From Verrucomicrobiia bacterium (GTDB lineage Bacteria; Verrucomicrobiota; Verrucomicrobiia; Opitutales; Cerasicoccaceae), in contig JAUIAM010000002.1 of assembly GCA_030425485.1 (NCBI GenBank), positions 62,001 to 126,000 on the forward strand: a stretch of DNA of 64,000 nt, in the 5' to 3' direction. Position 1 is the first letter of the stretch. Each line of letters opens with the position of its first letter. Under the pieces are notes generated by a model. It made no database searches, was not told the DNA's origin, and was given only the letters and a program-made list of their open reading frames with translations. The position numbers and the translations under genes were made by a program. Below, one piece after another: positions 14,539-35,624 of the stretch.

Positions 14539-15843
14539 TTAGCGCGTCTTCAGGCAGTCGAGCAGAGCTAGCCCAGTATGGTAGCAAGGGTCGGCATCCG
14601 GTACTGCCGGGATTGCCGTCGAGGTCTGTCCATCCTCCTGCAGGCACTGTCGCGCCAAATATCCCCTATCGGGCAGGACGAAATATTGCTGAAAGGCATC
14701 CCAACATTCCGCAAAAATCCTCTCCAGATCAGGACAAAATCCCCCATGCTGCATCCCGAAGTGAGCGGCGCGCATAGTCTCTGGCAAAGACCACCACGGC
14801 ATGTCGGTATTGATCGCACACCTCGACTTGAGGTCGAAAGCTTTGACGATACCTTTGCCCGTAAAACCATTGGCATAGTTGCGTATTAGCATTTGCCTTA
14901 GCATATGCACACGCTTGGCATCCCACCGCCCCGTTGCCTTCAAGTGCGCCAATGCCAGCCCGACAAACTCCGTCGCATGTCCCGGATCGGAAATCAATTC
15001 TCCCTCAGGAGTCATCCAGGGCTGACCCGCCTCATCAACAAACTCCCAGAAGTCTCCCTCTTCTAAACCGAGCTCATAGTGTCTCCTCTCCTTGGCCACA
15101 TGCCGTGAAATGATATCATCAATAAAAGCGTTCCCCAGTTCGCCGTAAGCCACATTTCCCGTGCACTCATAGAACAGCGTTGCTGCGCCTATGCCGATCA
15201 TGCGCGCGGCATGGGACTTCCGCCCAGCCATGTCTCCGGCCCGATTCTTAGGGTCCAGGCAAACCTGCCCTGAGCGAAATCGATCAGCGTGAACATCTTC
15301 GATTATCTGACGAAACAACGACTCGGCTTTCTGGCATAGGTCACGCCTGTCCACATAGTGAGCGGCGGCCATCAGCCCTTTGGCATAAAAAAGATCGCTT
15401 AAAGAAGTCGCCGCGGCAGGCTCGATCGATACCTCTTCAACCTTTCGATTGGCATCGAGATTTAAGGGCACGCCGGTGCTCCGCATCATAAAGGGAAGTC
15501 GCCCAGCATTCACATCACGAAGCTGCTCCATCAACACGGGCAAGTGATGGAGAAAGCCTTCCATTCGCTCAATGGCAAGGGCCCCCACACCGTGATCATT
15601 ACCGCCAAACTGCTTCAGCCATCTTGCATGCGCAGTCATGGACTCCAACGCCCGCCCCTGGACCCACGTATAGATGATAGAATGGCTACGAATCGCATCA
15701 TCGTCAGAGAATCGCTCACCTGAGACGAGGTCGAATTTTGTATCGAAAAATGGATACGCGTCATCCATCCGGCCCAGCACATAGTTGAGAGACTCTCGCA
15801 ACTGCACACTGATCGTGTCGCGTATCGACTCCATATCACTCAT
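14539..15843 (-). CDS. AGE-superfamily protein (N-acylglucosamine 2-epimerase-like)
   Basis: This 434-residue protein appears to be an (alpha/alpha)6 barrel. Its pattern is that of the AGE/cellobiose-2-epimerase superfamily: SDPGHATEFVGLAL (the conserved His of the PGH motif), DMPWWSLPETMRAA and a final DPCYHTGLALLDCL. These His, Trp and Glu residues line the sugar site in known epimerases. It has no signal peptide and is probably cytosolic. It is the last gene of the long operon that begins at 27800, following two secreted glycan proteins, and would interconvert a released sugar at C2 or isomerise it. Overall similarity to the textbook renin-binding proteins looks low, so an isomerase or a related hydrolytic toroid remains possible. 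Confidence 0.7.
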   Translation of the reverse strand: MSDMESIRDTISVQLRESLNYVLGRMDDAYPFFDTKFDLVSGERFSDDDAIRSHSIIYTWVQGRALESMTAHARWLKQFGGNDHGVGALAIERMEGFLHHLPVLMEQLRDVNAGRLPFMMRSTGVPLNLDANRKVEEVSIEPAAATSLSDLFYAKGLMAAAHYVDRRDLCQKAESLFRQIIEDVHADRFRSGQVCLDPKNRAGDMAGRKSHAARMIGIGAATLFYECTGNVAYGELGNAFIDDIISRHVAKERRHYELGLEEGDFWEFVDEAGQPWMTPEGELISDPGHATEFVGLALAHLKATGRWDAKRVHMLRQMLIRNYANGFTGKGIVKAFDLKSRCAINTDMPWWSLPETMRAAHFGMQHGGFCPDLERIFAECWDAFQQYFVLPDRGYLARQCLQEDGQTSTAIPAVPDADPCYHTGLALLDCLKTR

Positions 15844-18386: not shown

Positions 18387-20483
18387 TTAATCGAAGGTAA
18401 CGACACGTACTTCAAACGGCTCCATTTTGTAAGCCAGTTGACCGCCATCCCACTTACTTGGAGTAAGCTCGAGAGTCTCCACGCCGCTTTCAACAGATGG
18501 GTCAACCTTGCGCACACGAGCATAGGTTTGAGCATTTAATGCCAGCGTAGAAACACTCGTCTTCTTTTGACCGATCCCGGTATCGGCAAGGCTCAAGGTA
18601 ACATCCACGGCGTGATGGTTTTTGTTTATCAAAATAGCCCGAATTTGTCCTTCGCTCGTGCTCGCGTAAACTTCGACCGTACTGGCATCCGAAGTCGCTC
18701 CCACCATTTCACCGGTAAAGAATTTGCGATAAATCCACAGCGTATGCCAGGCAGGAAAAACAGCGGCCTGCCCGTTATCGGACCAGATCGACCCGAAGCC
18801 GCCGTTGAGTGTAAAATAGCAGAATACGTCCCCCCCGCCGGTGACAAAGCGCCCCAGCACGCTGGCTGTCCACGCCGCCCCAAACATGGAGCGTATGCGC
18901 GGGTCCGTCCCTTCGTGATAACGCCAGCTGGTATTGGCCTCGGTAATCACGATTGGGAGTTTCCGGTGAGGAGACAGTTCATCGATCACCTCCTGATATC
19001 GACGCGCCGATGACTCAAAGTTCGCGGTCCGCCCCATCACATATGCATCCGGCGACTCAAAGGGCTCAGAGTATCCATACTGATGGTAAGATACAAAATC
19101 AACTTGCTCGGGCACCGCTCGAATCAATTCCGCCGCCCAACCGGAGTTAGGTCCCGCCGTCACGGGACCTCCTAACTGAATACGCGGCTCTACCTCACGC
19201 AGGCGCTGGGCCACCGCAGCGTAAACTTTGATGTAGTATGCATACGACCAGTCATGCAGTTCGACTTCGTTGCCAATCTCCCACCAGAGGACAGGCGGCC
19301 CCTCTCTCTCTTGGGTGTAGTGCCGCACGATTTGCGCGCAATGTTCTGCATATGCCTCGATGTCGTAGGGCTTGCGCAAGCGCTTTGCCTCTTCAAAAGT
19401 CGCCTCCTCGCCATAGAACCACTTTGGCGGAAATGACAGGCAGATCATGGGCTCGGCACCATACGAAATCGCAGCGTCAATGACGCGGTCAAGCTGTGTA
19501 AAGTCCCAGACACCTCGCGCCTTGGAGGGCTCAACGGCATGCGTCTGGATGCGAAAGAAAGGCCGTCCAGGCAATGCCGGTGGGCTAGGCTCCGATACGT
19601 TTTCATGTCCAGTCCCCAACAGCACGCGCGCCGGTCCGGCGTATGCGGGAGATGTCGAAGAACCATTCCCCACGGAAACAAGGGCGGTAGGAATCGTCCG
19701 TATACGCTGCTTGGGGTTAAGGGAAATATGCGCCTCCTGAGTGGCCGCAGCACCCACGACGACGGCCTCCTCCCGAGCGCGTATATCCTCGACGATAGCC
19801 TGCGTCTCGGGACTTTTCCCCAGCAGGGTTGCGGCAACGATAATTGGCACCGCATCGGTATTGGCAGAGATGAACTTGATGTCCTCAATCGTTTTCTCGG
19901 GATAGGGATTGATCCAGCCAAAGCAGTATATGCCGACCCGGGCCGCGCCGTTGAAGCTCTCCCAGGCGACCTCCCCCAGCGGCAACGACTCAGGCCTCCA
20001 CCACGCAGCAAAGTGCTTGTTATAGAGAAACGCGGACTCGCTGTAACTGGTATCTTCCCGGTAGGTCACGACCATGCGCAGGACTTCTTCATCCGGTGTC
20101 GCACTCCAGGCGCATGTACCGGCGAATATGATAGCCTCTCCCTTCTGACCGACTGAGATAGCCGGTGACTCAAGGGGCATTGCACTGCGCGGCTTACCGC
20201 GCAGTACAATACATGATGTCCCATTGTTTTCCTCTGGGTCTATAATATCAAAAGGCACCTCGCACCAGACCTGCCGTCCCGTCGGCAGTGCTTTCATATC
20301 ATTTGAAGGGCCTTGATCAGTCCACCCCCCTCTGCCGTCTCCACTCACCTCATCGGCAAAGCCCATGTTCGTGGCATCTCGCAAGTCTATGTACAGATAG
20401 TCGCCCGAGTCCCCCCGGAGGCTGATAGTCGCTACGAAGATACACACGAGCATAGCGCTCGCCAGCTTTCCAAATGTTGGCAT
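18387..20483 (-). CDS. Secreted clan GH-A glycoside hydrolase (GH39/GH51-like) with N-terminal beta domain
   Basis: This 698-residue protein has a signal peptide (residues 1-24) and an N-terminal beta-sandwich-like region to about 220. A (beta/alpha)8 catalytic region (about 280-600) follows, then a C-terminal beta domain. The retaining clan-A pair is visible: acid/base Glu in WWEIGNE (E406, preceded by Asn405) and nucleophile Glu in IVITEANTSW (E515), about 109 residues apart. The loop VSYHQYG between them is also common in GH39/GH51-type enzymes. It should cleave a beta-xyloside, arabinofuranoside or related linkage outside the cytoplasm; the exact family cannot be fixed by eye. It is flanked by a PEP-CTERM gene upstream and the CBM-repeat gene downstream in one operon. 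Confidence 0.82.
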   Translation of the reverse strand: MPTFGKLASAMLVCIFVATISLRGDSGDYLYIDLRDATNMGFADEVSGDGRGGWTDQGPSNDMKALPTGRQVWCEVPFDIIDPEENNGTSCIVLRGKPRSAMPLESPAISVGQKGEAIIFAGTCAWSATPDEEVLRMVVTYREDTSYSESAFLYNKHFAAWWRPESLPLGEVAWESFNGAARVGIYCFGWINPYPEKTIEDIKFISANTDAVPIIVAATLLGKSPETQAIVEDIRAREEAVVVGAAATQEAHISLNPKQRIRTIPTALVSVGNGSSTSPAYAGPARVLLGTGHENVSEPSPPALPGRPFFRIQTHAVEPSKARGVWDFTQLDRVIDAAISYGAEPMICLSFPPKWFYGEEATFEEAKRLRKPYDIEAYAEHCAQIVRHYTQEREGPPVLWWEIGNEVELHDWSYAYYIKVYAAVAQRLREVEPRIQLGGPVTAGPNSGWAAELIRAVPEQVDFVSYHQYGYSEPFESPDAYVMGRTANFESSARRYQEVIDELSPHRKLPIVITEANTSWRYHEGTDPRIRSMFGAAWTASVLGRFVTGGGDVFCYFTLNGGFGSIWSDNGQAAVFPAWHTLWIYRKFFTGEMVGATSDASTVEVYASTSEGQIRAILINKNHHAVDVTLSLADTGIGQKKTSVSTLALNAQTYARVRKVDPSVESGVETLELTPSKWDGGQLAYKMEPFEVRVVTFD

Positions 20484-22235: not shown

Positions 22236-24503
22236 TTAGTTATCTGGTTCGGTATACTCGAGGCAGACGATAGCGAGCGGTGCTGCGCAAGCATCATGCA
22301 ACTCCACCGGCTTGTCATGCAGCTCTACCGCATTGCCGTCATGTTGTGAAATTTCCAGAGGTTCAGCCTTATCCGGCAGCCCCAAGCGGTAGATATGGGC
22401 CCTGGCAACGCTCCGGCCACGCGTATCGAACCAAACACTCCAACGACCGCTATCAGATGCGTCGGCGATGACGAGCAGATCACTCTTCTCGTTCAGTGCA
22501 AAATGTTTGGCGGATGTCCCTTTCGGAGTAAGCCATGTAAAAGCGACATCATCACGGAATTCACCCAGCCCCCAAGTCTTCAGCCAATGACGGCGTAAGG
22601 CTATCACATCCTTCAGGTAAGCCATCATCTGCGGGTCATCGCGAAATGAGTTTTCATCCTCAAGATCATAGGCCCACAGGTAGCACCCTGTCATAAATGC
22701 CCGGTCAATCATTTCACGCGATGCCTGCGATATATGCACCGGGCGCATAGCCTGCCCACGCTCGGGATAGACCATATCAATCAGGCGTTGAGCCGGGAAA
22801 GTGTAGCGGTATAGCTCCGGAAATGCCCCTGTATAATGATAGAAGAAGGTTGAGATGAGCTGCCCATTTGCCTGCGGACCGTGGATGTCCGAAACCCCTT
22901 CGTAGAACACCGCGATATCCAACTCATGGCGAATTTTCTCCAAAAGCTTGCGGTAGCCCGCGTTCCACCAATCGATACCTTGCTGGCTTCCACGCTCTCG
23001 GCAGAGTTGAGGCGGAGACATGGCCAGTTGGTCGAGGTAAACAAAGTCTGCCCCCGCCTCCTGCGCAAGGAAACGCACCGCGTCAAAAACACGCTCACGC
23101 CATTCCTCTTCATTGGGAGACATGACCGCAAACTCAATATCATCATCGCCATAGCACTCCGTCTTCAGTTCGCCAGCCAGATTATGCACTCCCGCGCGCT
23201 CGACCAGCTCACTTAGCTCGTTGTACTTTCGATTAACAAGACGTGAATTGATGTAGAACCCGACTCGGCCACCATGCTCATGGACAGCGGCAATCTGCGC
23301 GCAAAGTTCATCCGTTGTGCCGAGGTCAGGATCAGGGCGGTATTGCGGGAAGCCATGGTCGAAACCATCAATGTGCCAGCCCGATAATAAAAGGTCGTTT
23401 AGCCCCATTTCTTGAGCTTCAGCATACAGACGCCCTAAATCACTGAAGCGATGAACAATATCTCCACTTTGATACTTGAAGTCATAGTGCGCCACCAGGC
23501 CACTGCTGCACTGCAGCCAGTCAGGGTCAGGTGCGGTATCAGCTGAGCCCGTACTGGCATGGTGCCAGCCCCGGTAGCGGTCTGCTCCCCAATGCCAATC
23601 CCCAGGGTGCACCGCTACACCAGCTGGAGCCGACGACCAGGAATCGCCAGGGCGCAGATCCGGGTATTTTGCGATGTAGAACCCCATGCCCGGCTTATCC
23701 GGACCAAAGGTTTCCGCATGCAGGGCACTGACGGGCATAGCGGGATCGTAAGAGGCCAAATAAAAACCCTGCTCCTGCTCGTAGTAATCCAGCCACATCA
23801 TGGACAACGGGCCAGAGTACCGATACTCCCGGAAGTGTGCCCCGTCATCGTCAATCGTCGTTGCAATACCATCACGGTAGTAACGGTATTTATACTGCTG
23901 CCACTTCCAACCGACTTCTGCGGGTGTACGCGCGTACGTCTCAACCGGGTTCACGATTTTCTCACCGGAGTTAAAGGGGTAAACCAGCGTGTCATCCTTC
24001 CAGGAGCGCCCATGATACAAACCAAAGACACACGGGAAGCGCACTTCGTGGATGCGCGCTCCGTCCAAGACTTCATTGAAAGATTCACCGCACGTCAGCT
24101 GCATTTCCCAGATCGACTCCTCATCATTCTGCGGCAGAGATACAGTTATCTCGACCTGAATGTCCACGGCCCCCTTCTCCGTGTAAAGCCTGGGATAAGT
24201 AATCGTCAGTGAGTTCTGCGCAGCCCCGTCCCCAGCCTCTTGAAAGGCAGGAGAAAGGCCTGGATCACTAAGCACCTGATGGTAGGTCGGCGCGACCAGC
24301 TTCAGCGTTTCACCGGCTGCATTAGCCAGCAGCAGGCAAAACGGCATACTGCGATGAGCCGACCAGTTTTTGAGCAAATTCTCTCCCGTGCGGTTGTTAC
24401 AGAGTTCAACCAACTCACCCGTTCTCCGGTCAAAAGCCAATGCGATGTGCTCATTCTTCAGGCGCACGCGACGTCCGGAGTTTGCCTTTGTGCTAGTCAT
24501 CAT
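22236..24503 (-). CDS. DUF6259-type glycoside hydrolase-like protein
   Basis: This 755-residue protein without a signal peptide begins with a beta-sandwich containing IALAFDRRTGELVELCNN, typical of DUF6259 and related alpha-galactosidase-like enzymes. It continues into a TIM-barrel-like region. Candidate catalytic acids lie in GWHIDGFDHGF (about residues 385-395), DFVYLDQLA (about 480) and AVFYEGVSD (about 525). It most likely hydrolyses a glycoside in the cytosol or is exported by an unusual route. I use ATG 24503, which overlaps the MurQ-fusion stop by four bases (ATGA). Translational coupling to a MurNAc-6-P etherase/kinase suggests that the product is an amino-sugar or lactyl-sugar, which is inference. 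The precise family is uncertain. Confidence 0.7.
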   Translation of the reverse strand: MMTSTKANSGRRVRLKNEHIALAFDRRTGELVELCNNRTGENLLKNWSAHRSMPFCLLLANAAGETLKLVAPTYHQVLSDPGLSPAFQEAGDGAAQNSLTITYPRLYTEKGAVDIQVEITVSLPQNDEESIWEMQLTCGESFNEVLDGARIHEVRFPCVFGLYHGRSWKDDTLVYPFNSGEKIVNPVETYARTPAEVGWKWQQYKYRYYRDGIATTIDDDGAHFREYRYSGPLSMMWLDYYEQEQGFYLASYDPAMPVSALHAETFGPDKPGMGFYIAKYPDLRPGDSWSSAPAGVAVHPGDWHWGADRYRGWHHASTGSADTAPDPDWLQCSSGLVAHYDFKYQSGDIVHRFSDLGRLYAEAQEMGLNDLLLSGWHIDGFDHGFPQYRPDPDLGTTDELCAQIAAVHEHGGRVGFYINSRLVNRKYNELSELVERAGVHNLAGELKTECYGDDDIEFAVMSPNEEEWRERVFDAVRFLAQEAGADFVYLDQLAMSPPQLCRERGSQQGIDWWNAGYRKLLEKIRHELDIAVFYEGVSDIHGPQANGQLISTFFYHYTGAFPELYRYTFPAQRLIDMVYPERGQAMRPVHISQASREMIDRAFMTGCYLWAYDLEDENSFRDDPQMMAYLKDVIALRRHWLKTWGLGEFRDDVAFTWLTPKGTSAKHFALNEKSDLLVIADASDSGRWSVWFDTRGRSVARAHIYRLGLPDKAEPLEISQHDGNAVELHDKPVELHDACAAPLAIVCLEYTEPDN

Positions 24504-26515
24504 AAGTCCGTTCCCCAATCTGCATTGTAAGCCTCTAAGGCGCGGCGAATATGCCCCTGGCTCTCCTCAAGTAATTGTCTTGCCTGAGTGGCGTCCACAC
24601 CGATGCGGGCCATTATAATCGCGGTTTTCATTTCCCCATTTGCCTGCGCTAGCAGTTCTGTCGCGGCAGACTCGCTAGCAACCCCGCCAGCATGCATAAC
24701 GATTCCGCGCGCACGTATCTTGAGTTTTTCATTTGATGGAACCATATCCACCATGCGCCCGTGAAAAACCTTGCCCATATGAATCATGGCAATGGTAGAG
24801 AACATATTCAGAACAACCTTCTGCGCCGTCCCAGCCTTCATACGGGTCGAACCCGCGATGATCTCCGCCCCGGTAGAAACCTCGATTGGGTGGTCCGCAT
24901 AAGCGCTGAAAGCCGCCCCTTTGTTGCAGGCCAGAGAGACGGTCAGTGCCCCACAGGAGCGAGCCTCCTTCAAGGCACCCATGCAATACGGTGTGCGCCC
25001 GCTGGCCGCAATAGCTACCACCACATCGCCAGGAGCAACCCCACGGCTCTTTAAATCCAATCCACCCTGCGCTTCATTATCCTCCGCGCCCTCGGAGGGA
25101 TGAAGCAGTGCTGACTCGCCCCCGGCGATTATGCCCTGCACTTTCTCAGGTGATACGCCAAAGGTCGGTGGACACTCTGCCGCATCGAGCACCCCTAAGC
25201 GTCCGCTGGTACCTGCCCCCACGTAATAAAGTTTGCCGCCAGCGGATAATCTAGCACTGATAGCATCAATCGCGTCAGCGATGCTGGTGGCCTCGCGCTT
25301 CACCGCGCTGACAGCGTGCTGGTTGGAATCCGCAATCAGCTTAACGATGGAGAGCGTATCGCGCGCATCCAAATCATATAAAGCCGGGTCACTCGACTCG
25401 GTGCCTAGCCCGGACAGCGGATTCGCATGCCTATCGACGCCCGCTTCTTGTATCGCATCCGCGCTTGTGCAAGCAACCTCCTCGCAACGGGAGAACGTCT
25501 GCTCAAGCCGCGCCTTCGTGTTTGTTTCCGTATCCAGGCCAAGCTGATCCAAGAGGTAAATCGCACCCCCCAGAACAGGCGGCATGGACGGAGCCGTGAG
25601 CATCACGCGCGTAGCCACTCCACTCTCTTCAAGCACGCTTTTGAATTTCTTGAGAAACCATGCCGATCCCCATAAGCCACCCGTTAAGATAACTTCTACC
25701 GATTTGGCGGCGCCCTCCGCTGCTCTGTCCGAAACCTTTATCGCATCCACAAGCAACGCCACCAAGTCATTAGCAGCACCATCAATCAGACGCTTCGCTA
25801 CGGCATCTCCGCCAGCAGCCGCCTCGCACACCAAGCTGGACAGGGATGCGATGCGCGTACGCCCGCCCTCATAAGCCAGAGGAATGAGCGCCTTCACATC
25901 AGGGACGGACCAGCAGTCCATAATGGCCTGTGTGAGACCAGTGGGCTCACCGCTACCGTCATGCTCGGCCATGATCGCTTTTAGCGCTCGGCGCCCGAGG
26001 TCATAGCCGCCGCCTTCATCTGCAATCAGGTAACCCCAGCCGCCAACGCGGAATTCCCGCCCCTCGCCATCCAGCCCATAGGCTACCGTTCCCGTGCCCG
26101 CTATCAAGGACAGGCGCGGCAGCGTGCCGCCACCACACCACAAGGCAGAGATAGCATCATGCGTGGTGATCACTTGCTTTAGCGCAGGGAAAAGGCGTCG
26201 CACCTGAGCGGACAGTTTATCTTGAACACTTGATGCGGAGCCACCGGCAACCCCAATAAAAACGTGCTCGATTGCTTCCAGACCAAGGACAGTCCTTAAG
26301 CGACGGGCCACTTCATCCATGGCATTCACGGACTCCTCCGGCGCGCCGTTGGGGTTCAGTGGCATGCCTACCCTTACTCTGGCCAGCACACAGCCATCTG
26401 CCCGAAATGCCACTGCCTCGGTCTTAGACCCGCCACCATCGATGGCAACCAATACACCTTGCGCTTCGCGCGGAGCGGAGCAGTGGCTGTCATTAACTGA
26501 TTGAGCAGTACTCAT
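24500..26515 (-). CDS. murQ: Fusion of BadF/GlcNAc-kinase-type ATPase and N-acetylmuramic acid 6-phosphate etherase (MurQ)
   Basis: This 671-residue protein has two enzymes in one chain. Residues about 20-325 are a BadF/BadG/N-acetylglucosamine-kinase-type ASKHA ATPase: phosphate loop IDGGGSKT (25-32), LIAGTGTVAYG (137-147) and ADEGGGYDLG. Residues about 365-668 are a full MurQ: YYVGAGTSGRLGVLDAAECP (430-449; E447 matches the essential Glu), EGAEDNEA (475-482), VVVAIAASGRTPY for the SIS phosphate site, and STRMKAGTAQK. MurQ cleaves D-lactate from MurNAc-6-P to give GlcNAc-6-P. The kinase half could phosphorylate MurNAc or GlcNAc, so the fusion would channel the phosphorylated sugar. No frameshift separates the halves. 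It sits second in the 27800 operon. Confidence 0.93.
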   Translation of the reverse strand: MSTAQSVNDSHCSAPREAQGVLVAIDGGGSKTEAVAFRADGCVLARVRVGMPLNPNGAPEESVNAMDEVARRLRTVLGLEAIEHVFIGVAGGSASSVQDKLSAQVRRLFPALKQVITTHDAISALWCGGGTLPRLSLIAGTGTVAYGLDGEGREFRVGGWGYLIADEGGGYDLGRRALKAIMAEHDGSGEPTGLTQAIMDCWSVPDVKALIPLAYEGGRTRIASLSSLVCEAAAGGDAVAKRLIDGAANDLVALLVDAIKVSDRAAEGAAKSVEVILTGGLWGSAWFLKKFKSVLEESGVATRVMLTAPSMPPVLGGAIYLLDQLGLDTETNTKARLEQTFSRCEEVACTSADAIQEAGVDRHANPLSGLGTESSDPALYDLDARDTLSIVKLIADSNQHAVSAVKREATSIADAIDAISARLSAGGKLYYVGAGTSGRLGVLDAAECPPTFGVSPEKVQGIIAGGESALLHPSEGAEDNEAQGGLDLKSRGVAPGDVVVAIAASGRTPYCMGALKEARSCGALTVSLACNKGAAFSAYADHPIEVSTGAEIIAGSTRMKAGTAQKVVLNMFSTIAMIHMGKVFHGRMVDMVPSNEKLKIRARGIVMHAGGVASESAATELLAQANGEMKTAIIMARIGVDATQARQLLEESQGHIRRALEAYNADWGTDL

Positions 26516-26522
26516 TACGTCA

Positions 26523-27800
26523 TTACCTATTTAGACTCGTTCCGAGAAGTCGATCGACTTGCTGTGAATTCTTATCGGTTGCTTCATATGATGGGAAATA
26601 AATCGGTCCCGTCGCCCCGGCATAACGAAGCAAGGCCATAATAGCGTATCCGCCCGTCCGGATATTCGCAATCGCTGGATCCAAAGTATAGCTATCGGTA
26701 TAGCCGCGGAATGCACCATCGGCAACCCCATCAGGACGCATAACCTGCAAGCCAAGGATGTAATCAACGGTCGCCTCGATGGCCGTATCGACAGGCAAGC
26801 TCGACCCTAGTGCGCGTGCGGCCAGCAGTTCCAGCAGCACACTTCCGCCAGCCGGTGGCACAGAAAAGCCATCCACTCCATGCGGGCCATAGCCACCATC
26901 TTCACGCTGCATAGATAGCATATGAGACAGGAAGCGCTCAGCCGCACGCATGTATTGCACATCCCCGGTAATTTGCCACGCCATCATGTTGGCCAGAGCT
27001 CCGAAATCATCATTATACTCGTGCATCCGAATCCAGCCCACAGGAGCGATGGTTTGACTCACTTCGCTATCAGCCAGAATAGAGCGACTCCGTATATCCG
27101 CAATCACATGCACCCTGCCCGCGTCATCCAGCAGCAGGTCGTTATAAAGCCTCAAGATAGTTTGCATCATTTCGCGGTATGCATCCGTGCCGAGTACCGT
27201 ATATAGCCGTGCCATAAATGCAGCACTACCACTATGAAACGAGCCATACCAGCGCGGAGCCACATCAAATCCATCAAACCCCACCGTCCAGCGGGGATAG
27301 CCACCATCCAGAGAGGATGCGACAAACCAGTCGGCGTAGCGAATCGCCCTTTCCCGCGCCTCGGCATCCTCCATCAGTTCCGCCCAGTCCCACAGAGCCC
27401 AGGCGGCTGTAAGCGCATCGCGAGGATGGAAGGTGCGCGACTGCGGCGTCTCCTCGTGAAACGCACCCGACACCCGGGGTCGCATGGGGGAAAACTCCTG
27501 CAACGAATAAATGTAAGCCACTGCACGACGCGCAGCGTCCAGATAGCTCTCGCTACCAAAAAAACGATACCCCATCAGCATCGCCTCAATCCCCACCGCT
27601 GTCGTCCAGTTCGTAGTCAACGTGAGTGTGCGATCCTGCTCGCAATCATAGATGAAGGTGAATCGGCCATGATCGGCACTGCCCTCATCCTTAACTTGAG
27701 TGCGTACCAGAAAATCAAGTCCGCGCCGGGCAGCCTCTGCGGCTAGCTTTACCCGGTCAGTCTTCCCACTCAAATCCGCCGATTTGTACATATATGACAT
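26523..27800 (-). CDS. (alpha/alpha)6-toroid protein, glycoside hydrolase or lyase-like, first gene of operon
   Basis: This 425-residue cytosolic protein has repeated helical hairpins with aromatic motifs, as in six-hairpin glycosidases, AGE epimerases and GH88/GH105 unsaturated-uronyl hydrolases: RGLDFLVRTQ, LTTNWTTAVGIEAML, HPRDALTAAWALWDWAEL, APRWYGSFHSGSAAFMARLY, VGWIRMHEYNDDFGALANMM and REDGGYGPHGVDG. I cannot place it in one family or identify catalytic residues with certainty. It is the first gene of the long minus operon and starts only seven bases from a predicted -10 box that overlaps an AraR-like operator. It ends seven bases before the MurQ fusion. It probably acts on an oligosaccharide imported before phosphorylation. 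Confidence 0.65.
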   Translation of the reverse strand: MSYMYKSADLSGKTDRVKLAAEAARRGLDFLVRTQVKDEGSADHGRFTFIYDCEQDRTLTLTTNWTTAVGIEAMLMGYRFFGSESYLDAARRAVAYIYSLQEFSPMRPRVSGAFHEETPQSRTFHPRDALTAAWALWDWAELMEDAEARERAIRYADWFVASSLDGGYPRWTVGFDGFDVAPRWYGSFHSGSAAFMARLYTVLGTDAYREMMQTILRLYNDLLLDDAGRVHVIADIRSRSILADSEVSQTIAPVGWIRMHEYNDDFGALANMMAWQITGDVQYMRAAERFLSHMLSMQREDGGYGPHGVDGFSVPPAGGSVLLELLAARALGSSLPVDTAIEATVDYILGLQVMRPDGVADGAFRGYTDSYTLDPAIANIRTGGYAIMALLRYAGATGPIYFPSYEATDKNSQQVDRLLGTSLNR

Positions 27801-28052: not shown

Positions 28053-29189
28053 CTACTGCGAGACGGGACGGCAGGAATCGCGAATAATCAACTCGGGTCG
28101 CACCGGTACAGACTCCAGACTACTATCAGTCGCCCCTCCAATAATGCGTCCCATCAGTAGTTTTAGCGCACCTCGCGCTACTTTATCAGCACACTGGCTT
28201 ACGATGGTCAGCGGTGGGGCGTGAAACTTAGCCTGTTCGGAATCATCAAATGCAACGATCGAAATATCATCCGGCACGCGCAAGCCGAGCTCACGCAGCG
28301 CGACAATAACCGGATTAAGCAGCATGATGCCACCAATCATGAGTGCGGTTGGGCGATTAGGCATGCTGAGCAAACGGCTGACCACTTCACCCACAACATC
28401 CATTGACCAACTCGACTCCACGATCATGGATTCATCCACCTTCAGGCCCATGCCAGCATAGGCACTGCGATAGCCATTGATACGATGAGCGGCGTCATAG
28501 CGCATGCGCCCGTCCTCTCCGCGGGCAGTAATCAAGCCGATTCGGCGATGACCATAGCAGAGCAAATACTCCGTCGCCCTCAGCGACCCTTCGTCCTGAT
28601 CGATGTATACCTGCGGAATATTCGCACCCTCTACGCGACGAAAACACCCCACGACCGGCACACGGCGGGCATCAATCTGCCGAGTCAGCTCCATATCGGA
28701 TTCGCTCACCGGCAATACAAGCAGGCCATCGCACTCCGCATGAACAGAGGCCGGAGAGGCTTTACAGAAACGATCAAAGTTATCGAACCCAAACTCGAAG
28801 GAGAGCAAAGCCCGTTCGGCCACTTCCTTACGCGCACGATTGAGCCAGTTGATAAGCTCAGCACCCACGCCCACAACCTCTCCCTCAAACCCCAATACAA
28901 CAGTGATGCGCCTGCGCCGGGCGGTAGGGTCTTCACTTACCCCCTCCGAGACAAAACTCCCCGCCCCCTGGATGCGGTAAATCAACCCCTCGCGTTCAAG
29001 CGTAGCCAGCCCCTGGCGAACCGGGCCACGACTGGCCTCGAAACGCTCGCACAACTCCCCCTCGGAGGCCAGTTGCTCACTGGGCCGTATCCTGCCTTCA
29101 AGTATATCTCGGCGAAGGGCTGCAGCCACCAGTTCATGCTTGGGCAGCATCGTTGAACGCCTCTGTCCACGCTTTGCGGAAGTATCCAT
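28053..29189 (-). CDS. GntR-LacI chimeric transcriptional regulator (AraR-type)
   Basis: This 378-residue regulator fuses an N-terminal GntR winged helix (about residues 15-75: HELVAAALRRDILEGRI, then CERFEASRGPVRQGLATLER) to a periplasmic-binding/LacI-type sugar-binding domain (about 90-375, from RRITVVLGF, with CYGHRRIGLI, PTALMIGGI and PDDISIVAFDD). This architecture is that of Bacillus AraR and relatives, which bind sugars and dimerise on ATTTGTAC-type palindromes. I start at ATG 29189; a GTG nine bases upstream is an alternative. A palindrome of matching type lies just before the gene and again at the downstream operon, so it probably represses itself and the 27800 operon until a sugar binds. 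Confidence 0.9.
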   Translation of the reverse strand: MDTSAKRGQRRSTMLPKHELVAAALRRDILEGRIRPSEQLASEGELCERFEASRGPVRQGLATLEREGLIYRIQGAGSFVSEGVSEDPTARRRRITVVLGFEGEVVGVGAELINWLNRARKEVAERALLSFEFGFDNFDRFCKASPASVHAECDGLLVLPVSESDMELTRQIDARRVPVVGCFRRVEGANIPQVYIDQDEGSLRATEYLLCYGHRRIGLITARGEDGRMRYDAAHRINGYRSAYAGMGLKVDESMIVESSWSMDVVGEVVSRLLSMPNRPTALMIGGIMLLNPVIVALRELGLRVPDDISIVAFDDSEQAKFHAPPLTIVSQCADKVARGALKLLMGRIIGGATDSSLESVPVRPELIIRDSCRPVSQ

Positions 29190-29196
29190 CTCGAAC

Positions 29197-29212
29197 ACTT
29201 GTATCTACAAGT
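29197..29212 (-). promoter_or_regulatory. Perfect 16-bp operator palindrome ACTTGTA-TC-TACAAGT
   Basis: The plus-strand arms ACTTGTA (29197-29203) and TACAAGT (29206-29212) are perfect inverted repeats around TC, seven bases upstream of the regulator's ATG. The form resembles AraR operators (TTGTNNNNACAA core). The position implies autorepression. Confidence 0.7.
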
Positions 29213-29304: not shown

Positions 29305-31272
29305 CTAGTCTAAGCGACTTAGCATCGCTCCCCGCCGGGTAAGCAGTTCACAAAAATCTCCAAGGTCCATATGCTCCAAGATTCCAGGAATGGATATAGT
29401 CTTCATGCGGTCAAACGGGTAGAAACGCTTTGAGACAAAGTTCCCAAACCTGAAGCCATGAAGTTCCCGGTCCACCTGGACCCGATCTATGCCCTCCGAC
29501 AGACAGGCAGCGCATAGCCCGGGCATGGCATACGCACCGAGCAGAAAGTAATCTACCTTCGGCCAACGGATACCAAAATCTTTTAGTGCGATAAAGACGC
29601 TCAGTATCTCTCGTGCATTTAACGCTGCAAGGCAGTCGCCCAGGCGGACCAAATCGTCGCAGTACTTATGAATCGTACCATAAAAACCACCCGGCATTCT
29701 GGCATTGACCGGGTCCGGCGCCATGACGCCATGACCGTTTAAGTCCATGATAAAGAGGTAACGGTACTGTTCCTTTAAGTCTGGATAAGCCTGAAGCACT
29801 TGGCCCAAGCGATCGGCCCCTCCCTCCCACAGGGCAATACACAGCTTATCGCTTTGAGCGGCAGGCGCCTCCCAGAGCACTCCCTGGCTGAAAAATGCCT
29901 CGTGGCTATACCATAAGAACTGCCTCCACTTAGCCCCGAGGCTCTCCCCCTCTCCCGTCATACGTATATGATGACGAACACCGCCGACCTCACCCACCAT
30001 TCGCCTCAACCATGCATCCTTCTGGCCTAAGCTCACTACCTCGCCGCACCTTTTATTCAGGCTGCGATATCGCCTCATGTTCTCTTCAAACACCGTGACC
30101 GCACCCGCGAACTCCGCAAGCACCTGGCCACTGTCCGTGACTCGAAGCGGCGAGGCACACACATGCCCGGAGCTTTCATGGACCTTCCCTCGCAGGTGCT
30201 TTTGAAAAAACGTAACGGCTTTATTCGCATGAGATGCCGTATAGGCATGAGGGGCCGCGTCGATATACAACTCCACGGACTCTTCAGCTTGAAATACAGA
30301 CCAGATACGCTTTGCCCGCTCAAACGTACGCATGGTGCCTTCTATTGGAAACGTGTCCCATTGGCTCGCTAGAACCAGAAAGGGACGCGGGGCGACAGCC
30401 GCCATCAAGCTTTCGTGATCGTGTCCCTCACCAGCAAACCCAGGCCAGAGTTGCTCGGCATCCTGAGCCTGTCCGCTCTTCTCCATGCACTCCAGGTTGG
30501 TAATGAAAGTTCCCGGACAACAAACGGTGACGCGATGATCGAGAGCACTCAATACAGAGGTGAGTAGGCCGCCGCCGGAATTGCCCGTAACGCCGAGTTT
30601 CGCCCCATCTACCTCAGGCAGTTGCTGAAGCAAATCCAGCCCACGCACGGCGTCACGAAGAAAGTAATAGCCCAGCGGCCGTCCGGTAAGCAACGCCTGT
30701 CGACCAGCATATTCATGCTCACAAATCCCCCACCGAACTGTTGATTCCTCCATCGATGGATCCCAATAACTCAGCCGCTCCCCCTGCCCAATCGGGTCGA
30801 TGGAGAGCACCACAAAGCCTGCATGCGCCAACTCGGAGCACACGGACAGGTACATTGGGCTGTTCTTCCCCTCTTCCTCGTGCCCAGGCAAAAAGAGAAT
30901 CCCCGGCCTGGGCCGTACCATCCCTTCAGGTACCCATAGCAGGGCTGTCACCGGGACTCCAGGCGAAGACCGATAGACCAGCTTACGCACGCTAAAGCCC
31001 GCATATTTCACCTCGCCACGCTCCCCATAGCGCACCCTGCTTTCCGGCAGTGGCAATCCGCCCAAGGAATCGGCCAGCGTCTTACGAAATGCCTGCTGCC
31101 ACGATATGACCGACTCCGGACTCATCAACCGATCTCTCTCCTCTTCGCCACGCTTGAGGCACGCGCGCATCTGTCGTCTTATATGATCGCGTAGCTGTCC
31201 ACCTGTACTGTGGAACGAGTGCCTGTTGAGAAAAACCGGCATGGCATGCCTACCCGATGCAGGCGAGGTCAT
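29305..31272 (-). CDS. Alpha/beta hydrolase family protein (acetyl-xylan esterase/dienelactone hydrolase-like)
   Basis: This 655-residue protein has an alpha/beta-hydrolase domain at about 90-350: oxyanion loop FLPGHEEEG (127-135), IDPIGQGER, nucleophile elbow GVTGNSGGGLL (S232), Asp in ASQWDTFPIEG (D306) and His in DAAPHAYT (H342). The layout matches large deacetylase-type esterases of polysaccharide loci. The C-terminal 290 residues form a further domain that seems to carry a second, degenerate hydrolase-like fold (WEGGADRLGQVLQAYPDLKE). No signal peptide is evident. Its ATG overlaps the upstream stop by four bases, so it is the last gene of the SSS transporter operon. A role removing acyl groups from imported sugars is inference. 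Confidence 0.8.
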   Translation of the reverse strand: MTSPASGRHAMPVFLNRHSFHSTGGQLRDHIRRQMRACLKRGEEERDRLMSPESVISWQQAFRKTLADSLGGLPLPESRVRYGERGEVKYAGFSVRKLVYRSSPGVPVTALLWVPEGMVRPRPGILFLPGHEEEGKNSPMYLSVCSELAHAGFVVLSIDPIGQGERLSYWDPSMEESTVRWGICEHEYAGRQALLTGRPLGYYFLRDAVRGLDLLQQLPEVDGAKLGVTGNSGGGLLTSVLSALDHRVTVCCPGTFITNLECMEKSGQAQDAEQLWPGFAGEGHDHESLMAAVAPRPFLVLASQWDTFPIEGTMRTFERAKRIWSVFQAEESVELYIDAAPHAYTASHANKAVTFFQKHLRGKVHESSGHVCASPLRVTDSGQVLAEFAGAVTVFEENMRRYRSLNKRCGEVVSLGQKDAWLRRMVGEVGGVRHHIRMTGEGESLGAKWRQFLWYSHEAFFSQGVLWEAPAAQSDKLCIALWEGGADRLGQVLQAYPDLKEQYRYLFIMDLNGHGVMAPDPVNARMPGGFYGTIHKYCDDLVRLGDCLAALNAREILSVFIALKDFGIRWPKVDYFLLGAYAMPGLCAACLSEGIDRVQVDRELHGFRFGNFVSKRFYPFDRMKTISIPGILEHMDLGDFCELLTRRGAMLSRLD

Positions 31273-33701: not shown

Positions 33702-35624
33702 TTATTGAGAAGTAAGCGGGTCAACATGCCCGTCATCATCCTTATCCCGCTCACCACTTCTGAGCCTCCGAATCAGGGAGCGTACATCCATGCTCCCTCC
33801 GATCAGGAACCATACGGTAACGATCAGTGCGAGGGTGATTTTGAACCCGATAAACAATGTCCAAAAGCGAATCCACCATGACTGATCGGCGTTCCCGGTA
33901 AAATGCCAGATAAGCCCAACAAAAAAAGAGAGCATGAAGGTAGCCGCCAGCAGCATGGTCAGAAAGTACACGAGCCTGTCTCGCTTGGTAAATTCTTCGC
34001 TGATGCCCAATCGACTCAGCAACCCTTTCGACTTCTTCGGCGCATCGAGCGTGGCCTGGGCCGCCTGCGCTTCTCCTGCCATCAGCGTTTTCAAATCAAA
34101 CCGCTGCTTCCCAAGCATTGAAACGATGAAATAACTTACACTGGAGCAGACCATTGACATGAAGTATATCTGCGCACCGTTTAAAAAGAAGTCCGGGTCT
34201 ACCTGGCGCACGATCAGTCCCCCAACACCAATAGTTGAACCGACAATCAATGCTGCGTAGGCGCCCTGCGTCGTCCCCCTGCTCCAATACAACCCTCCGA
34301 TTACAACGGCTCCCGCGCCCCCCAGATAGATTGCCCCTGAGAGCATCCAGAATAAAAGGATGTTCTGCGACTGCTGAAAAAGCAGACTGAATGTAAAGGC
34401 AAATGCCGCTACAGAGAAGATAGCAATACGCAGCACCAGCAGGTGCATCTTCGGGCTTAGCGGCTTTCCCCTGAGCGGGAGGATGATATCTTGAATCAAA
34501 ATACTCCCCCACGAATGCATGTACGAGCTGTCCGTAGATATGGATGCCGTAAACATGACCGCAGCAAACAGGCCCAACAAGCCCACGGGCAAAATCTCGG
34601 CCAGGACTGCCGTCGTTGTCTGTTGCGTCCTCAACTGTTCACTGGGCATCGCATCCAACACCGTCATCACCTGCTCGGCTACTGCAACCTCGGACGCGTG
34701 CGTCAAAACAACCAAGGCGCAAATTGGCAGCAAGACAGGCGCAAAATGAGAAACGGCCAGCCGCCAGTTACTCAGTACCTTTCCCATCCTGGCTTCGTGC
34801 GGGGACAACGCCGCCGCATTATAACCCTGCGTCCCCTGCCAGGCCATGTGCGTATAAAACGCACTGTAGATACCAATCAGGTAGTACCAGATATTAAAAT
34901 CCGGCATGTCACCAATATCGAATGGATCAAGGAATGACTTACCACCCTCAGACACCTTGAGCGTATCAACAACGGTAATCCAGTCGAAGCGAATGAAGAA
35001 CCAGAAGATGATGGCCAGCAAGGCGATGTTAATGAATTGGCCCTGAATGAAATCGGTAATCATGACCGCGGTCTGCCCGCCCCTTAAAGTCACAACAAGC
35101 GCCGAGCCCAGAATCGCCATCATAACCAGCGGATAAACAGGTAACGTCAGTGAGAACACCCCGATATGGGAAGGCATCTGGCAAAACGACATGAAGAAGC
35201 GCGCCGTTACCGCGGGAAAAATCCCGTAATTGATCAGACCCGCCAGAAATGCAAGGGAGCCGGCAAATATCCTCAGCCTTTTGCTGTATCGCATCTCCAG
35301 CATTTGCGCCAGCGTCAGGGCACGGGTAGCACGAAAGCGATATATGACCCACCCGGACAGGGTCAAAACGAGGACGACCGGCAGGTTGACCAACTGCCAA
35401 AACGCAGGTGTAAACCCACCCTGATAGTATAGCTCAAACTGGGAGACTATCGAGATTGCCCCCAAGCCCGCAGACCCCTCCGCCACCGTTAGCAAATAGC
35501 GCCCACCGCAGCGATTTGCAGCCAGAAAGTCCGCCACCCCACGCGTCAATCCCTTCAGCAGAAACGATACGACGATCAGCATAACCGGCACCAGCGCTAT
35601 GATGAGATAATCGATAAGATTCAT
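33702..35624 (-). CDS. Sodium:solute symporter (SSS family)
   Basis: This 640-residue integral membrane protein has about 13-15 hydrophobic helices. It begins MNLIDYLIIALVPVMLIVVS and continues with the SSS hallmarks FLAANRCGGRYLL, the G-rich region VAEGSAGLGAISIV, and repeated TM helices to the C-terminus. It should import a sugar, sugar acid or related solute with sodium across the inner membrane. The C-terminal tail is charged (RRLRSGERDKDDDGHVDPL). The ATG has an AAGGA ribosome site. It is the first gene of the minus operon and diverges from the ROK regulator across a region holding a perfect palindrome, so ROK control is likely. It is the only clear transporter in the window and probably serves several of the catabolic modules. 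Confidence 0.92.
   Translation of the reverse strand: MNLIDYLIIALVPVMLIVVSFLLKGLTRGVADFLAANRCGGRYLLTVAEGSAGLGAISIVSQFELYYQGGFTPAFWQLVNLPVVLVLTLSGWVIYRFRATRALTLAQMLEMRYSKRLRIFAGSLAFLAGLINYGIFPAVTARFFMSFCQMPSHIGVFSLTLPVYPLVMMAILGSALVVTLRGGQTAVMITDFIQGQFINIALLAIIFWFFIRFDWITVVDTLKVSEGGKSFLDPFDIGDMPDFNIWYYLIGIYSAFYTHMAWQGTQGYNAAALSPHEARMGKVLSNWRLAVSHFAPVLLPICALVVLTHASEVAVAEQVMTVLDAMPSEQLRTQQTTTAVLAEILPVGLLGLFAAVMFTASISTDSSYMHSWGSILIQDIILPLRGKPLSPKMHLLVLRIAIFSVAAFAFTFSLLFQQSQNILLFWMLSGAIYLGGAGAVVIGGLYWSRGTTQGAYAALIVGSTIGVGGLIVRQVDPDFFLNGAQIYFMSMVCSSVSYFIVSMLGKQRFDLKTLMAGEAQAAQATLDAPKKSKGLLSRLGISEEFTKRDRLVYFLTMLLAATFMLSFFVGLIWHFTGNADQSWWIRFWTLFIGFKITLALIVTVWFLIGGSMDVRSLIRRLRSGERDKDDDGHVDPLTSQ

Follow-up and report, generated by a model that had tools for sequence, protein, structure and literature searches.

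The window (the whole stretch of DNA that was analysed, 64,000 nucleotides) contains, at positions 24500-26515 of the reverse strand, a single open frame of 671 amino acids with an ATG start and zero internal stops. This gene, its domains and its principal neighbours are as follows:

24500..26515 (-): fused MurNAc/GlcNAc-type kinase and MurNAc-6-P etherase, 671 aa, assigned from profiles, PDB matches and a structure model
25529..26458 (-): kinase half, residues about 20-329, BadF/MurK type, with phosphate loop 26-32 and Asp120
25418..25471 (-): linker, residues about 349-366, pLDDT below 50 at 349-363
24533..25420 (-): MurQ half, residues 366-661, with Glu447 and Glu478
26523..27800 (-): 425-aa gene upstream of the fusion, possibly an alpha/alpha-toroid sugar-acting protein, from weak Pec_lyase and C5-epim_C matches
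22236..24503 (-): DUF6259 protein downstream of the fusion, likely glycosidase-like, its ATG overlapping the TGA of the fusion (ATGA)
28053..29198 (-): GntR-LacI type regulator (Pfam)
29305..31272 (-): esterase, AXE1 or glucuronyl-esterase-like (Pfam)
33702..35624 (-): sodium:solute symporter, SSF (Pfam)
18387..20483 (-): GH39-like glycosidase (Pfam)
14539..15843 (-): N-acylglucosamine 2-epimerase (AGE) family protein (Pfam)

The fusion is part of a run of same-strand genes spanning 35624 to 14539, in which it is separated by 7 bases from the end of the 425-aa gene and joined to the next gene by the ATGA overlap. A prepilin-like protein and a Laminin_G_3/PEP-CTERM protein are also encoded in this run; an 830-aa and two other proteins of the run gave no Pfam match, and comparison with solved structures gave no useful match for the neighbours of 425, 446, 348 and 830 aa or for the symporter. 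The toroid label of the 425-aa protein is an interpretation of the names Pec_lyase and C5-epim_C. A gap of 252 bases precedes the 425-aa gene and could leave room for a second promoter. Judged from this arrangement, the fusion probably sits, coupled to its neighbours, in a glycan-use operon; the operon evidence comes from one genome, because the three closest fusions (those of the window, G041 and G056) have no common neighbours.

Homologues of the 425-aa protein were found in four other genomes of 372 (G003, G004, G005 and G022), from all of which the fusion is absent; G022 has a separate MurQ on a different contig. A set consisting of an AGE-type epimerase, the 425-aa homologue and a CBM_4_9 protein of about 880 aa, with the homologue between the other two, is common to G005 (L175:7432-12785) and G004 (L177:7524-12904). 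A GH20 gene lies near the homologue in G005, polysaccharide-deacetylase-like genes occur in both regions, and a NagA-like gene is situated about 10 kb from the homologue in G004. The homologue is adjoined by an AGE-type epimerase in G022 and by an SSF symporter in G003. By their gene content, these neighbourhoods would fit an amino-sugar glycan.

Pfam BcrAD_BadFG (PF01869) matched residues 25-317 of the fusion (E 1.2e-27; 97.6 bits, cut-off 31.5), with SIS/GKRP_SIS_N domains C-terminal to it, and the NCBIfam MurQ equivalog TIGR00274 matched residues 371-661 (356.4 bits, cut-off 302). In PDB sequence comparisons, the MurNAc/GlcNAc kinase 8zo3 matched residues 22-261 (E 2e-31) and the MurQ HI0754 residues 366-661 (E 1.2e-74). 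The initial annotation, a one-chain BadF-type kinase plus MurQ at 24500-26515, was correct in description and coordinates on the evidence of the open frame and of the Pfam, NCBIfam and PDB matches. Its statement that both halves are complete, with phosphate loop and MurQ glutamates intact, also holds: the loop DGGGSKT occupies residues 26-32, and the kinase Asp120 and the MurQ Glu447 and Glu478 are present (the catalytic glutamates of MurQ are presumably Glu83 and Glu114 in E. coli numbering). Across 33 aligned fused proteins, the window protein included, these three acidic residues are kept in 33/33, the phosphate loop carries its Thr in 30 proteins, has Ser instead in 2 and lacks the residue in 1, and 18-64 residues separate the kinase and MurQ profile matches. 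Because other genomes carry full-length relatives (G041, 55% identity; G056, 53%), the fusion is no assembly accident, and an assembly error was ruled out. Assignment of the kinase half as AnmK was rejected, the AnmK domain (PF03702) being absent from the Pfam matches of the fusion, as was assignment to the curated NagK equivalog NagK_SO3507 (NF046058; 70.8 bits versus a cut-off of 370).

A structure model of the fusion was built from a 47-row alignment, in which the kinase-only rows are imperfectly aligned in their C-terminal part, and folds were compared by VIA-align; the fold match of the kinase half spans model residues 19-326. The model has a mean pLDDT of 90.4 and a pTM of 0.60, with residues 1-16 and the linker segment below 50. 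Because of the low values at 349-363, the halves look, in the model, like two firm domains with a loose linker between them. The best fold matches of the MurQ half were Yersinia MurQ 4s12 (Z 37.7) and Haemophilus MurQ 4lzj (Z 36.8). These Y. enterocolitica and H. influenzae enzymes resemble the MurQ half over its whole length and in both glutamates, and the half scores above the TIGR00274 cut-off, but in the window MurQ forms the C-terminal part of a longer protein. The best fold match of the kinase half was C. acetobutylicum MurK 8zo3 (Z 32.1, 298/306 residues aligned, rmsd 2.2), which is like it in fold, in the phosphate-loop and GGWG motifs and at 30% identity, and unlike the fusion in being a separate 306-residue protein. 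Further matches of this half were S. tokodaii hexokinase 2e2q (Z 29.8), human NagK 2ch5 (Z 29.7) and, more distantly, T. forsythia MurK 8oqw (Z 23.4, 16% identity). MurR with MurNAc-6-P (PDB 7en7) was among the listed fold matches of the model. Vertebrate glucokinase regulatory protein (GKRP) has a SIS fold related to MurQ and matched the model with Z 22.3. GKRP is a regulatory protein whose chain contains two SIS domains and lacks a kinase domain; the fusion, with one MurQ unit and a kinase domain and not two SIS domains plus a lid, was not assigned to it.

Relatives of the kinase half were collected by scanning species genomes with patterns from three fusions, and the best 80 of at least 530 confirmed stretches were kept. 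A murQ gene lies directly beside the kinase on the same strand (MurQ domain at most 400 bases from the kinase domain) in 44 of these best 80 of at least 530, downstream in 37 and upstream in 7; the 44 loci are not independent, since close relatives recur, for example four of Thalassobacillus. One further locus of the 80 is fused (the contig of G056 itself), two have MurQ elsewhere in the locus, and MurQ was not found in the locus of the remaining 33; flanks of at least 1 kb on both sides were available in 69 of the 80. As a control, MurQ was found within about 1.5 kb in 0/11 loci of more distant BadF kinases from the order of the window genome. On a Thermomicrobium roseum plasmid, murQ overlaps a BadF-family gene, adjoined on the opposite strand by beta-N-acetylhexosaminidase, AnmK and nagA genes; on a Bradyrhizobium plasmid, a BadF-family gene is followed by murQ and then by a SIS gene, with a divergent nagA. 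Two further plasmid records are unannotated in the stretch concerned. Since 44 of the best 80 kinase relatives lie beside murQ, the fusion unites a known gene pair.

According to excerpts of PMC5790795, C. acetobutylicum MurK accepts both MurNAc and GlcNAc, with GlcNAc slightly preferred, and excerpts of PMC5790795 and PMC10465942 place a BadF-type MurNAc kinase, MurK, in the murTKQ operon of T. forsythia. The initial annotation, in which MurNAc-6-P is normally supplied by a PTS or AnmK, was incomplete in omitting these BadF-type enzymes. The fold matches, the murQ adjacency, the murTKQ operon and the dual specificity of the C. acetobutylicum enzyme make a MurNAc/GlcNAc 6-kinase the most likely identity of the kinase half. 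In T. forsythia MurK, the small residues S133-P134-L135 and T94 are linked to MurNAc preference and leave room for the lactyl group, which a His at the T94 position would strain (excerpts of PMC10465942). The window kinase, mapped by motif without superposition, has G158-G159-W160 and His119 at these positions, and because the Tannerella specificity residues differ here, preference for MurNAc over GlcNAc is not readable from the sequence. The similarity of the kinase half extends to GlcNAc kinases and hexokinases. It is possible, though rather doubtful, that this half has GlcNAc or another hexosamine of the glycan as its main substrate while the MurQ half handles MurNAc-6-P from elsewhere, the two reactions running in parallel and not consecutively. 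Such a division would agree with the resemblance to GlcNAc kinases (NagK_SO3507 at 70.8 bits under its cut-off of 370; human NagK at Z 29.7), with the slight GlcNAc preference of the C. acetobutylicum enzyme in the same excerpts of PMC5790795, and with the GH20 and deacetylase-like genes near the homologous neighbour cassette in G005. A shared intermediate is favoured, however, by at least two separate fusions to MurQ and by the frequent murQ adjacency, and the search, which was for AnmK, revealed no further source of MurNAc-6-P.

The reading we consider likely is that the fusion is a bifunctional MurK-MurQ that would turn MurNAc into GlcNAc-6-P and serve the glycan-use operon. The N-terminal BadF/MurK-type domain would phosphorylate MurNAc, and probably GlcNAc as well, at O6 at the expense of ATP, and the C-terminal MurQ domain would then act on MurNAc-6-P, eliminating its lactyl ether with GlcNAc-6-P and D-lactate as products, so that the MurNAc and GlcNAc routes would meet at GlcNAc-6-P. 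The initial proposal that one chain makes MurNAc-6-P and converts it into GlcNAc-6-P and lactate thereby stands as an inference from the folds and from the 44 of the best 80 relatives beside murQ. In the window genome, the operon would be served probably through salvage of amino sugars released outside the cell and imported as monosaccharides. An SSF gene is present in the window run as it is in T. forsythia murTKQ, where a sodium symporter, a BadF-family kinase and MurQ form one set (excerpts of PMC5790795), but in that organism as three separate genes and with the more distant kinase; the window symporter might carry MurNAc.

Genes similar to nagB and nagA are adjacent in the window genome and would carry GlcNAc-6-P into glycolysis; their proteins score under the curated NCBIfam cut-offs (NagA-like 177.5 versus 225.65 bits; NagB-like 129.6 versus 236.9 bits). 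A Glucosamine_iso match on contig C57 of the same genome was rejected as NagB, being 6-phosphogluconolactonase. With the NagA-like protein as query, matches were obtained in 11/15 genomes, its own included, and none in G041, G056, G094 and G161, all of family f11; the NagA family model likewise gave no match in G041 and G056. Because NagA was found with neither query in these two genomes, which hold the closest fusions, GlcNAc-6-P may go elsewhere there. AnmK was not found in the window genome; the search returned it in 0/14 genomes tested, with 5/14 controls positive.

Cell-wall salvage is the known role of MurQ and MurK, and some other fusions of the phylum have unrelated conserved genes as neighbours, for example ligA in families f30/f31. 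Both points would suit a housekeeping role in recycling the murein of the cell itself, the operon position being incidental. This explanation appears unlikely, since nine other genomes of the window's family have neither the fusion nor a full MurQ match, the 7-base gap and the ATGA overlap couple the gene to those of the glycan operon, and AnmK is missing from the genome. The initial annotation had further suggested a lactyl-ether sugar of an external polysaccharide, in place of MurNAc from murein, as the substrate. The surrounding SSF transporter, esterase, GH39-like, DUF6259 and AGE-type epimerase genes provide a setting for such a sugar, but within the MurQ equivalog the MurQ half is unremarkable, and no operon gene specific for a lactyl sugar was found; a non-murein lactyl sugar is only possible, and we regard it as improbable. 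A location of the fusion solely beside cell-wall recycling genes had been named as evidence against the initial reading; other neighbours were found in the window, in G041, in two f20 loci and in two f30/f31 loci.

The architecture is more widespread than the sequence alone could reveal. In the window's order, at least 16/372 genomes carry a kinase-MurQ fusion: the window genome, G041 and G056 (53-55% identity) and 13 of family f20 (33-36%). In the sample of the phylum Verrucomicrobiota, at least 21/387 genomes carry one, a count for which open frames were checked and further candidates were left out (the kinase of G644 is cut by a contig end).

The MurQ tree has 96 rows, 28 of them fused, and its starred branches force two changes for the fused rows. 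One starred set of 3 unites the window, G041 and G056; it is nested in a starred set of 5 that also includes the stand-alone MurQ of G094 and G161. The remaining 25 fusions fall into a starred clade of their own. Descent of all the sampled fusions from one origin was rejected on this tree (p-AU 0.000368) with a thinned set of 76 rows, 19 of them fused (20 rows dropped, 9 of them fused); the fused group was labelled beforehand, and the test was run after the free tree was known. A kinase tree (79 of 119 rows) placed the two fused groups apart in all bootstrap trees, its starred branches not forcing the separation and its deep branches being weak. These sequence comparisons reject a single origin and indicate that the same architecture arose at least twice within one phylum, which is the most striking result of the analysis. 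Within f11, the pair may have been joined in one branch or may have lost its kinase in the other. The 25 fusions of the larger clade have the domain order of the window protein in one chain, but differ from it in identity (33-38%), in their separate origin on the MurQ tree and in their neighbours.

The chemistry is known; what is new is that it comes in one chain and that this form arose repeatedly. A MurK-MurQ fusion was not described in the parts of the open-licence literature that were searched and may already be in print; the view outside Verrucomicrobiota comprised the best 80 of at least 530 kinase loci and one plasmid search. Two consecutive steps of MurNAc salvage in one chain, fused at least twice, would point to selection for coupling, and the protein offers a ready test of MurNAc-6-P channelling. 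It may also be a clue that a polysaccharide degrader of the Opitutia type feeds on murein or on muramic-acid-like sugars; if it serves plain MurNAc salvage, the gain would be modest, namely that proteins in which family matches are dominated by the MurQ half could be annotated better. As a conjecture that we hold to be improbable, the pair might have been fused at least twice because tethering keeps MurNAc-6-P, a signal in E. coli, at a low level, with the window fusion recruited from murein salvage into a polysaccharide operon and opening the way to an external lactyl-bearing amino sugar.

The survey of fusion neighbours comprised 30 loci, with L062, L064, L066 and L184 left out of the neighbour reading. 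In four f20 loci (L065, L067, L068 and L069), the fusion lies beside sialidase-like BNR_2 proteins and a FAD oxidoreductase; the neighbours were scanned in L065 and L068, and the same clusters occur in L067 and L069. In six f30/f31 loci (L187, L190, L191, L195, L196 and L197), it adjoins a conserved gene, cl10, which in the two scanned (L187 and L196) is the NAD-dependent DNA ligase ligA. In G056, genes of the NTP_transferase and APH families adjoin the fusion; they were considered as MurU and AmgK, an assignment that NCBIfam did not give and that was dropped.

The window genome has a single MurQ match, the fusion, and no match to a second type of SIS protein that occurs in the nine other genomes of its family (L013-L019, L021 and L025). 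All nine have such a protein of 508-553 aa with a MurQ-profile (SIS) match, accompanied by a second, weaker MurQ-profile match in 8/9; GKRP_SIS_N was present in the three proteins of this type that were scanned, two from these nine genomes and one from a different family. Outside the fused clades of the phylum, L072 and L074 (G675 and G373) encode kinase and MurQ in adjoining frames of their own, and in L072 the two are in the same reading frame with a single TGA between them.
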